Of a DNA stretch of 23,902 nt, positions 4,321 to 10,165 are shown piece after piece (the stretch's first letter is position 1; every line of letters starts with the position of its first letter). Source of the DNA: a virus; the IMG/VR virus record IMGVR_UViG_3300042892_000642, positions 1 to 23,902 of that record; one strand, 5' to 3'. The position numbers and the translations under genes were made by a program. The notes beneath the pieces are model-generated. The model made no database searches. It was not told the DNA's origin and saw only the letters and a program-made list of their open reading frames with translations.

Positions 4321-4350
4321 ATTATACAACAGACCTTAGTCTAGAGTCAA
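4321..4350 (-). promoter_or_regulatory. Sigma70 promoter (TTGACT-18-TATAAT)
   Basis: The -35 TTGACT lies at 4345-4350, overlapping the last codons of the bS21 gene, and the -10 TATAAT at 4321-4326, with an 18-base spacer. It would drive the methyltransferase at 4273. Confidence 0.7.
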
Positions 4351-4583
4351 TACATTTTTTTAGGTAAACTTTGATCACGTAATTGCTTATTCCAGCGAGC
4401 CTTTGCGGCTCCTTTTTTACGTTTGCGTTCTGTGGTGGGCTTTTCATAAAACATCTTGGCTCGTACTGTTTCTAATACGCCCGAATCTTCTACTTTTTGT
4501 TTGAATTTACGGAGTGCGACATTAAGTGGCATATCGCCGACGATTACTTTATTGCCAAATCCTGCTTTGTTATTTTTGCTCAT
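4347..4583 (-). CDS. rpsU: Phage-encoded ribosomal protein bS21
   Basis: This 78-aa protein is a recognisable bS21: PLNVALRKFKQ, then GVLETVRAKMFYEKPTTERKRKK, then a basic tail ending PKKMY. The FYEKPTTERKRK core is nearly identical to the bacterial consensus. bS21 sits on the 30S platform near the anti-Shine-Dalgarno and is exchangeable. A phage copy could replace the host protein and bias initiation toward phage mRNAs; that role is an inference made for other large phages. The N-terminus (MSKNNKAGFGN) is about ten residues longer than in E. coli. The gene overlaps the end of clpX by 14 bases, so the two are probably translationally coupled. Confidence 0.93.
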   Translation of the reverse strand: MSKNNKAGFGNKVIVGDMPLNVALRKFKQKVEDSGVLETVRAKMFYEKPTTERKRKKGAAKARWNKQLRDQSLPKKMY

Positions 4584-5802
4584 TCTTTACTTTTTTATCA
4601 AAAACCATGATGGCTGGCTTCCCATCAATCGTATCTTTACTTATCCGAATTGATTTTAAACCACGAGCTACAAGATCTACCGCATCAAACTGATAAGGCA
4701 TTAATATCTTTTCAATAATGTTTTTAAGGCCACGAGCGTTTGTTTTTAATTCTTTAGCTTTCTTAGCAATTTCACGTAAGGCATCTTGTTCAAAATCTAG
4801 ATTAATGCCGTCTAATTCAAACAGGTACTGATATTGTTTGATAGTACTGTTTTTAGTCTCTTTTAAGATGTTGACCAGTTGATCTTCAGTGAGCTCATCC
4901 ACATTGGTAATCAATCCAAATCTGCCTACAAATTCCGGAATTAATCCAAATTTAATAAGGTCTTTAGTTGTTACGTCGTGAAACACGTCCGGGTTATCTT
5001 CTACGTTATCTACATTTGCATGGAAGCCAACACTTCTGGCTCCAGTGCGTTGTTTGATAATTTTGTCAATTCCCACAAAGGCACCGCCACAGATAAACAA
5101 GATACTTCGAGTGTCAATCTCCTGCATGTCGCTACCTGGATGCTTTCTTTTACTTGTTGAAGGTACCCGCATGATACTTCCTTCAATCATCTTGAGCAGG
5201 GCCTGTTGGACCCCTTCGCCGCTGACATCACGGGTAATACTGGCACTTTCGCCTTTACGACTAATTTTATCAATCTCATCAATATAGACAATGCCGCGAG
5301 CAGCTTTTTCTAAGTCACCATCTGCTTCACTAATTAGTCGTGTAAGAATGCTTTCGACATCGTCACCTACATAGCCCGCTTCTGTAATGCCTGTAGCATC
5401 ACAAATGGCAAAAGGTAAGTCTAGGTAATCCGCAATCTTACGTGCCATCATAGTCTTACCGCAACCAGTAGGCCCTAACATAAGCACGTTAGTCTTTTCA
5501 AGTTCGATTGTTTTACTGGGATTGTTAATACGTTTGAAGTGTTGGCTCACGGCTACGCTAAGAGCAATCTTAGCATCGTCTTGCCCAATAACATAATCGT
5601 CAAGGTACTCTTTTATTTTAACGGGGTTTAGTAGTTTAAGTGTATTGGGGAAATTTTTAACTTTCTCGTCTTTGAGTATGTCAATGCATAGTTCTGCACA
5701 GTCGTTACATATAGCGGCATTGTCTCCAACAATTAACTTCTCTACGTCTTCCTTGCTCTTATTGCAAAAATCACATTTGTGATTAGTTTCCGATTTTGTC
5801 AT
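4570..5802 (-). CDS. clpX: ClpX, ATP-dependent unfoldase of ClpXP
   Basis: The protein is 410 aa, near the usual length (about 420), and complete. An N-terminal C4 zinc-binding domain (C10, C13, C32, C35) normally binds adaptors and substrates. The AAA+ core has Walker A GPTGCGKT (110-117), pore-1 GYVG (143-146), Walker B with DEID (175-178), the RKH loop (219-221), which in E. coli ClpX contacts the ssrA tag, and an ARGLKN sensor-2 region. The ClpP-docking loop equivalent to IGF reads VGF (258-260), so interaction with host ClpP is plausible; no clpP is in this window. It overlaps the upstream 133-aa gene by 20 bases and rpsU by 14. The same phage encodes a tmRNA whose tag ends LAA, the ClpX degron. 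A phage-specific target, or replacement of host ClpX, are both possible. Confidence 0.95.
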   Translation of the reverse strand: MTKSETNHKCDFCNKSKEDVEKLIVGDNAAICNDCAELCIDILKDEKVKNFPNTLKLLNPVKIKEYLDDYVIGQDDAKIALSVAVSQHFKRINNPSKTIELEKTNVLMLGPTGCGKTMMARKIADYLDLPFAICDATGITEAGYVGDDVESILTRLISEADGDLEKAARGIVYIDEIDKISRKGESASITRDVSGEGVQQALLKMIEGSIMRVPSTSKRKHPGSDMQEIDTRSILFICGGAFVGIDKIIKQRTGARSVGFHANVDNVEDNPDVFHDVTTKDLIKFGLIPEFVGRFGLITNVDELTEDQLVNILKETKNSTIKQYQYLFELDGINLDFEQDALREIAKKAKELKTNARGLKNIIEKILMPYQFDAVDLVARGLKSIRISKDTIDGKPAIMVFDKKVKNEQK

Positions 5803-9121: not shown

Positions 9122-9164
9122 CTGGTTGTTTCTGTTACGAGGTATTTCCTACCCTAAGCGGTGT

Positions 9165-9197
9165 TTAGGCCGCTAAGGCAAAATGTGAGTCATTTGC
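9165..9197 (-). other. tmRNA tag reading frame, ANDSHFALAA
   Basis: From the GCA resume codon at 9195-9197 the frame reads A-N-D-S-H-F-A-L-A-A and stops at TAA (9165-9167). It aligns residue for residue with the E. coli tag ANDENYALAA. The C-terminal LAA is the ClpX-recognised degron and the AND start is the part bound by SspB in E. coli. The bases just before the resume codon are GTAACT. The frame stays open upstream to another GCA at 9210-9212, which would give a 15-residue tag, but alignment favours the ten-codon version. Confidence 0.88.
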
Positions 9198-9303
9198 AGT
9201 TACTTTTTTTGCTTCTTCGACCGGGTTACCCCAATCCTACGGGTTCTGCTTTCCCGAGCTGTCCACTCTGTTACTCTTTGCCCTGTCGAAACTATGCAGG
9301 CCC

Positions 9304-9407
9304 ATTATAAAACACACTACGAACTCATCCTGCTGAATTTTCCGCTGTTCTCAACTAGATTCATCAGTTTTCGAGGCTGACCGCACCCTAGTATCTAATG
9401 TGTTTTA
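9304..9407 (-). other. Intervening segment of the permuted tmRNA precursor
   Basis: The 104 bases between the mature 3' CCA and the mature 5' G are removed in two-piece tmRNAs. The ends carry a perfect 9-base inverted repeat, TAAAACACA (RNA sense, 9399-9407) with TGTGTTTTA (9308-9316). It would extend the acceptor stem in the precursor and present both ends for processing. Confidence 0.8.
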
Positions 9408-9480
9408 TGGTGGACCTGGGGGGATTCGCACCCCCGTCCAGAACACTTTTCTCTTTGCTTCATACAGCAATAACTTATAT

Positions 9481-9807
9481 TTACACTCTAAAACTTTCTC
9501 CGCACCCGCATTTATCACGTTCATTAGGATTGCGAAATTCAAATCCTTCATTGAGTCCATTACGAGCCCAATCAACATTAAGTCCCTGTAAGTATGCAAG
9601 TGACTTTGCATCAACTAGTACTACAAAATCTGGTTGAGCAAAATTAGTAACTCCCTCTTCGGCAATGTAGCTGTCAACATATTCTAACGTATATGCAAGT
9701 CCGCTACATCCTGTAGTTTTTACACCTAGCCGTATACCAATACCCTTGCCGCGTTTGGACAGGAGTTGTAGGATTTTCTTATTGGCTGTGTCGGTTACGG
9801 TAATCAT
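9481..9807 (-). CDS. iscA: A-type Fe-S cluster carrier (IscA/ErpA/SufA family)
   Basis: The protein is 108 aa, the family's usual length. The three conserved cluster or iron ligands are present: C34 in TGCSGLAY, and C100 and C102 in CGCGESF. A-type carriers accept Fe-S clusters from a scaffold such as IscU and deliver them to apoproteins. The gene overlaps the end of iscU by 29 bases and lies immediately upstream of the tmRNA acceptor piece (stop at 9481). The exact subfamily (IscA, ErpA or SufA) is not decided. Single A-type carriers are known in marine phages; one coupled to a scaffold gene is more notable. Confidence 0.9.
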   Translation of the reverse strand: MITVTDTANKKILQLLSKRGKGIGIRLGVKTTGCSGLAYTLEYVDSYIAEEGVTNFAQPDFVVLVDAKSLAYLQGLNVDWARNGLNEGFEFRNPNERDKCGCGESFRV

Positions 9808-10165
9808 TCACAGCCGCCTTGATAGCATCTTCTGCTAGAATTGAACAATGTATCTTTACTGGCGGTAGGGCTAGCTCTTCGGCGATTTCGGAGTTTTTAA
9901 TTGATCCGGCTTCGTCAAGTGTTTTTCCCTTGACCCATTCTGTAATGAGGCTCGAACTCGCAATAGCCGATCCGCAGCCATACGTTTTAAATTTTGCATC
10001 TGTAATAATACCTGTATCATGATCAACCTTTATCTGTAGTTTCATTACATCACCACAAGCAGGAGCACCGACCATGCCAGTACCAATGTTATCATCATCT
10101 TTTCCAAACGATCCGACATTGCGCGGGTTTTCGTAATGGTCAATAACCTTGTCTGAGTAGGCCAT
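9779..10165 (-). CDS. iscU: Fe-S cluster assembly scaffold IscU
   Basis: The protein is 128 aa, full length. The ligands of IscU are all present: C37 with D39 (GAPACGDVMKL), C64 (KTYGCGSAIASSS), and H106-C107 (LPPVKIHCSILAED). The LPPVK motif (100-104) is the site bound by the HscA chaperone in E. coli. The N-terminus YSDKVIDHYENPRNVG is typical. It would build a [2Fe-2S] cluster with sulfur from host IscS. Its ATG overlaps the stop of the His-rich gene (TAATG) and its end overlaps iscA, so the genes are a translational unit. No IscS or ferredoxin gene is in the window. Confidence 0.95.
   Translation of the reverse strand: MAYSDKVIDHYENPRNVGSFGKDDDNIGTGMVGAPACGDVMKLQIKVDHDTGIITDAKFKTYGCGSAIASSSLITEWVKGKTLDEAGSIKNSEIAEELALPPVKIHCSILAEDAIKAAVNDYRNRHSQ

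Follow-up and report, generated by a model that had tools for sequence, protein, structure and literature searches.

A circularly permuted tmRNA gene with the tag ANDSHFALAA in an uncultured phage that also encodes ClpX

Introduction

Does the two-piece tmRNA gene found in an uncultured phage work, and which protein-unfolding machine reads its tag? tmRNA frees stalled ribosomes and marks unfinished proteins for destruction, and ClpX is the protein-unfolding machine that normally reads the tmRNA tag. Genes for both occur in an IMG/VR virus record of 23.9 kb that is probably a fragment and that we analysed at its full length of 23,902 nucleotides (the window). A preliminary description of this DNA had placed a phage-borne, circularly permuted tmRNA with the tag ANDSHFALAA at 9122–9478. 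It regarded such a gene as unfamiliar in a T4-like phage, considered the tag beta-like, and proposed a search with the Rfam permuted models as well as a comparison with the tmRNAs of candidate hosts.

Results

The window carries a complete, circularly permuted tmRNA gene on the minus strand, which ARAGORN calls at 9500–9074 with the tag ANDSHFALAA. The Rfam family tmRNA_permuted (RF04321) matches over its full model length at 9469–9165 and far above its cut-off (111.4 bits, E 2.5e-21, cut-off 47); the proposed gene type and tag are confirmed. The range given in the preliminary description comes near, but the beta_tmRNA model (RF01850) spans 9505–9101 and a terminator occupies 9123–9104. RF01850 is the top-scoring subtype model, yet its 83.2 bits stay below the cut-off of 84.

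Direct reading of the minus strand places the acceptor half before the coding half, as had been described. The 5′ part (9500–9408; ARAGORN, RF04321 from 9469) comprises the acceptor-side piece with the T arm, the 3′ acceptor strand CAGGTCC (9418–9412), the discriminator A (9411), and an encoded CCA (9410–9408). A spacer of 104 nt (9407–9304), expected to be removed by processing, separates it from the 3′ part (9303–9124; RF04321, acceptor stem covariation). This coding piece starts with the 5′ acceptor strand GGGCCTG (9303–9297), which forms seven of seven pairs with CAGGTCC. The third pair is G.U and corresponds to the alanine identity element G3.U70, so that the perfect pairing and the identity element noted earlier are both borne out. 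The spacer itself folds (−25.6 kcal/mol, z −2.6) with a 12-bp closing stem, thereby joining both tmRNA halves in space. The tag frame at 9197–9165 (minus strand) reads GCA AAT GAC TCA CAT TTT GCC TTA GCG GCC TAA, a translated frame for ANDSHFALAA with a stop codon and a hydrophobic -AA terminus. Directly 3′ of the tmRNA, an intrinsic terminator (9123–9104, minus strand) consists of a hairpin (−12.9 kcal/mol, z −3.2) and a T-rich tail. The stretch between iscA and the tmRNA shows no evident promoter, with promoter-like matches in this region at chance level, and the Rfam scan yielded neither a riboswitch nor any other family above cut-off anywhere in the window.

Related phages maintain both the acceptor stem and the tag. 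We compared 41 distinct tmRNA genes from contigs that encode a window-type ClpX. The stem is fully paired (7/7) in 39 of these, and pair 3 is G.U in 35, most exceptions appearing to be mis-parsed by a simple script that took the wrong site. Pairs 4–6 covary (CG/GC, CG/AT/GC, and TA/GC/CG/AT), with the covarying halves in reversed order around a spacer of 12–217 nt. This covariation, together with the E-value of the RF04321 match, excludes a chance origin. Moreover, the reading frame of the tag is under purifying selection: across 25 distinct 10-residue phage tags, pN/pS amounts to 0.28 in frame versus 1.54 and 1.86 in the shifted frames. Consequently, the tag is selected as a peptide.

Within the same clade, many tmRNAs (L084, L088, L090, L094, L102, and relatives) show the T loop GGCAGTG, not TTCGANT, and some terminate in ACCT or ACCG in place of ACCA. 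At least one tRNA gene with a CTA anticodon (an amber reader, termed “tRNA-Pyl” by ARAGORN) is found in each of the clade contigs L119, L147, L148, L150, L156, L157, and L160, which suggests possible amber suppression in some members.

An IscA-like gene (9481–9807, minus strand), oriented like the tmRNA but not belonging to it, lies a short way upstream; it scores 99.9 bits against TIGR00049 (cut-off 58.8) and remains below the cut-off of the IscA equivalog. It is preceded by iscU (9779–10165, minus strand; TIGR01999 224.1 bits, cut-off 192.4). The best bacterial matches of IscU are 82–88% identical and belong nearly all to Comamonadaceae/Burkholderiales; close relatives also occur in hundreds of viral contigs (at least about 599).

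Further along the minus strand, the window encodes a phage ClpX of 410 residues (4570–5802). It scores 529.7 bits against the NCBIfam ClpX equivalog (cut-off 359), matches solved ClpX in phmmer with an E-value of 2.9e-123, and has the features of the unfoldase, namely the zinc domain, Walker A and B motifs, the GYVG pore loop, and the RKH loop, while its candidate ClpP-docking loop reads VGF (IGF-like). The 3′ end of clpX overlaps by 14 nt the gene for ribosomal protein bS21 (4347–4583, minus strand; TIGR00030 51.2 bits, cut-off 28.95; phrog_21469), the pair extending over 4347–5802.

A scan with the window ClpX recovered 80 viral loci at 65–100% identity, and among phage records none exceeded 60%. 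In all 80, the reading frame runs uninterrupted for at least 395 residues and retains the zinc ligands and the GYVG loop. A permuted tmRNA above cut-off accompanies ClpX in 60 of these 80 contigs of an uncultured clade, always upstream of clpX and on the same strand, mostly 3–8 kb apart in a common gene order. It was not found in the remaining 20, a weak kind of absence in possibly incomplete contigs. Among 20 contigs sampled as lacking ClpX, 3 contain a tmRNA; one of the 20 controls (L018) is a clade member whose truncated contig misses the clpX region. The shared orientation and the difference in frequency speak for a dedicated viral tag-and-destroy branch, in which phage tmRNA and ClpX, joined by ClpP in larger relatives, would have co-evolved so that viral machinery clears stalled proteins. 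The RKH loop, retained in 73 of the 80 phage ClpX, points the same way. So does a full-length canonical ClpP in 7 of 50 ClpX-encoding contigs, including the four largest searched (164–323 kb); the three ClpP sequences we read carry the motifs GQACSMG and MIHQPSGG or near-identical ones. In the large contigs L265–L267, the clade ClpP genes are located distant from clpX. Nine named huge phages with ClpX provide a further comparison: six reach the tmRNA cut-off, with a permuted form in Phosso, standard forms in G, LR756511, and LR756504, and scores barely sufficient in Lak-C1 and Lak-B2, and three (Atu_ph07, PA5oct, SCTP-2) have no tmRNA over the cut-off. This co-occurrence is suggestive, although genome size confounds it, huge phages carrying many translation genes regardless. 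The Acinetobacter “phage” MD-2021a was dropped from consideration as probable bacterial DNA (tig-clpP-clpX).

Shared descent confounds the association. On a tree of bS21 and the exonuclease, the ClpX-encoding contigs form one clade, with a single gain of ClpX, while the tmRNA changes state 14 times across the tree. Thus, 60 of 80 versus 3 of 20 does not represent independent co-gains, and the corresponding Fisher test (odds ratio 17, p 1.2e-6), with ClpX being a single event, is no evidence of coupling; we therefore rejected co-gain of the two genes. In the reverse test, which started from the tmRNA motif, we examined 50 further viral contigs that have a permuted tmRNA, and just one of them has a window-type ClpX. 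Since 20 of 80 ClpX contigs yielded no tmRNA and 49 of these 50 tmRNA contigs no such ClpX, neither gene requires the other. Besides, clpX adjoins the bS21 gene, not the tmRNA. Taken together, a co-evolved viral branch is a possible but rather doubtful account. We also rejected the idea that tags ending in AA mark the contigs that carry ClpX (40/41 versus 44/50, p 0.12).

Outside this clade, permuted tmRNAs are readily found in viruses. A motif scan of IMG/VR gave 80 loci, 50 of which ARAGORN calls permuted and 16 one-piece. Unusually long predicted tags of about 24–31 residues appear in the viral permuted tmRNAs L302, L303, L309, L329, and L335 (also L277, L288, L319, and L340), several of them with a common core, e.g., ANADTFDFSAMSFTGNTVSGKSKVALAA. 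Among isolates, Menderavirus Yut2, a T4-like phage of Stenotrophomonas, has a permuted tmRNA annotated as SsrA and adjoining nrdA-nrdB, and RF04321 and ARAGORN both detect permuted tmRNAs in the Xanthomonas phages X1 and XacN1. The latter two (L434 8940–9390 and L435 1440–1860) are without annotation in the GenBank records. No clpX homologue is present within the stretches of X1 and Yut2 that we read. A two-piece tmRNA has also been published for the marine myophage Melnitz; the same paper describes 53 two-piece structures in public phages, as well as 17 permuted genes in a set of 47 related contigs (PMC9004378). The window tmRNA is therefore a further case of a known kind, and the rarity assumed for a permuted tmRNA in a T4-like phage was mistaken. 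A T4-like nature of the window phage, or a relationship to Menderavirus, is plausible from its gene content, as the nearest isolated NrdA and NrdB are those of X1 and Menderavirus; the 24-kb fragment itself lacks most hallmark genes.

The comparison with Burkholderiales leads back to viruses. In the sets compared, every one of the 40 sequences that best match the window tmRNA at the nucleotide level is viral, ahead of the sampled Burkholderiales permuted genes. The beta-like character of the tag thus holds with respect to the best subtype model, but neither the score nor the closest sequences carry it further. In Burkholderiales, the permuted form is a minority (12 of 250 over the RF04321 cut-off), and the Comamonadaceae and relatives examined have a one-piece tmRNA, mostly with the tag ANDERFALAA. 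A plasmid search for the window tmRNA gave no match. For the viral and Burkholderiales sets compared, we accordingly rejected recent capture from a host: the best tmRNA matches are viral, and Comamonadaceae, the source of the best IscU matches, have one-piece genes.

Discussion

We are fairly confident that the window gene is a working phage two-piece tmRNA, which would depend on the alanyl-tRNA synthetase and SmpB of the host and direct tagged proteins to host ClpXP or to the phage ClpX. Its part in ribosome rescue is most likely, given what the sequence shows and what is established about tmRNA biology; that phage ClpX may use the tag is suggested by the co-occurrence of the two genes. The gene would be transcribed as one precursor, possibly by read-through from iscU-iscA, that ends at the terminator at 9123–9104. 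Host tRNA-processing enzymes would remove the spacer, leaving two RNAs joined by the acceptor stem, and host alanyl-tRNA synthetase would charge the molecule through G3.U70. Host SmpB, needed because none of the 50 ClpX-encoding contigs tested contains SmpB, would then deliver the charged tmRNA to ribosomes stalled on broken messages, where the ANDSHFALAA tag would be added and the ribosome freed. Unfolding of the tagged proteins may finally fall to host ClpXP, or to phage ClpX acting with host ClpP and, in some relatives, with phage ClpP.

Taken further, the same genes could form a self-contained branch of trans-translation in a large uncultured clade, with its own permuted tmRNA, ClpX, bS21, and, in bigger genomes, ClpP, drawing only SmpB from the host. 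We hold this extension to be tentative and on balance unlikely. If it were true, proteins stalled during infection would be tagged and degraded on viral terms.

The lack of SmpB in the contigs tested would also suit an RNA that draws on the host pool and mainly interferes with it: by competing for the ribosome or for the SmpB of the host, it would dampen or re-label host trans-translation. Phage DS6A offers a reported precedent with a form reduced to the tRNA domain, as cited in PMC4131195 and PMC11915505. However, the DS6A form is without a tag, whereas the tag of the window is complete and under purifying selection, for which a pure decoy has no need; interference is thus improbable. A functionless relic, be it a captured host gene or the remnant of an attachment site, would fit the patchy distribution with 14 state changes and the frequent use of tmRNA genes as integration sites (PMC11915505), but it is highly improbable for a complete gene with a covarying stem, a selected tag, a terminator, and viral rather than bacterial nearest relatives, in a window without an integrase among its identified genes.

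In the open-licence literature, we found papers on phage tmRNA and papers on phage ClpX or ClpP (PMC7824862, PMC11242549, PMC9723584, PMC7162821), none of which links phage tmRNA with phage ClpX. For Sinorhizobium phage AP-J-162, tmRNA, ClpX, and Clp proteins are listed but unconnected (PMC11242549). The window gene adds a clear case to the viral permuted tmRNAs, a set apparently commoner than published counts indicate, because inside the same fetched ClpX-clade loci RF04321 found 51 tmRNAs and ARAGORN, the tool behind the published phage counts compared, found 21. The joint presence of phage tmRNA, ClpX, bS21, and sometimes ClpP turns into a testable question why phages carry tmRNA and whether its tag leads to viral or to host proteolysis.

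Compared with known systems, the window gene shares with the bacterial two-piece tmRNAs (RF04321, RF01850) the gene order, the G3.U70 acceptor stem, the T arm, and the tag end ALAA. In contrast, it falls just short of the bacterial beta_tmRNA model (83.2 versus 84), and most Burkholderiales have another form. Melnitz, a Methylophilales phage, and the pelagimyophages (PMC9004378) are myophages that likewise combine a two-piece permuted tmRNA with nrdA/nrdB; their tmRNA, however, has been described as of alphaproteobacterial type, with a link to a glutamine riboswitch, whereas the window gene scores highest with the beta model and the window has no riboswitch above cut-off. Closer in several respects are Menderavirus Yut2, X1, and XacN1, all three of which receive the permuted call from RF04321 and ARAGORN. 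In X1 and Menderavirus, the tmRNA is situated near nrdA-nrdB, and their NrdB proteins are the nearest isolated ones to that of the window (63% and 57%). The tags of the Yut2, X1, and XacN1 group are VAANDDSYTVRIAA, VAANDADYSVARYA, and ANANTFDYALAA, compared to ANDSHFALAA in the window. Finally, the phage ClpX of the window has full-length counterparts in the jumbo phages Atu_ph07, Phosso, G, PA5oct, and Lak. Of these, PA5oct (L425), a cultured jumbo phage of Pseudomonas, has a clpX that overlaps a bS21 gene by 14 nt, as it does in the window.
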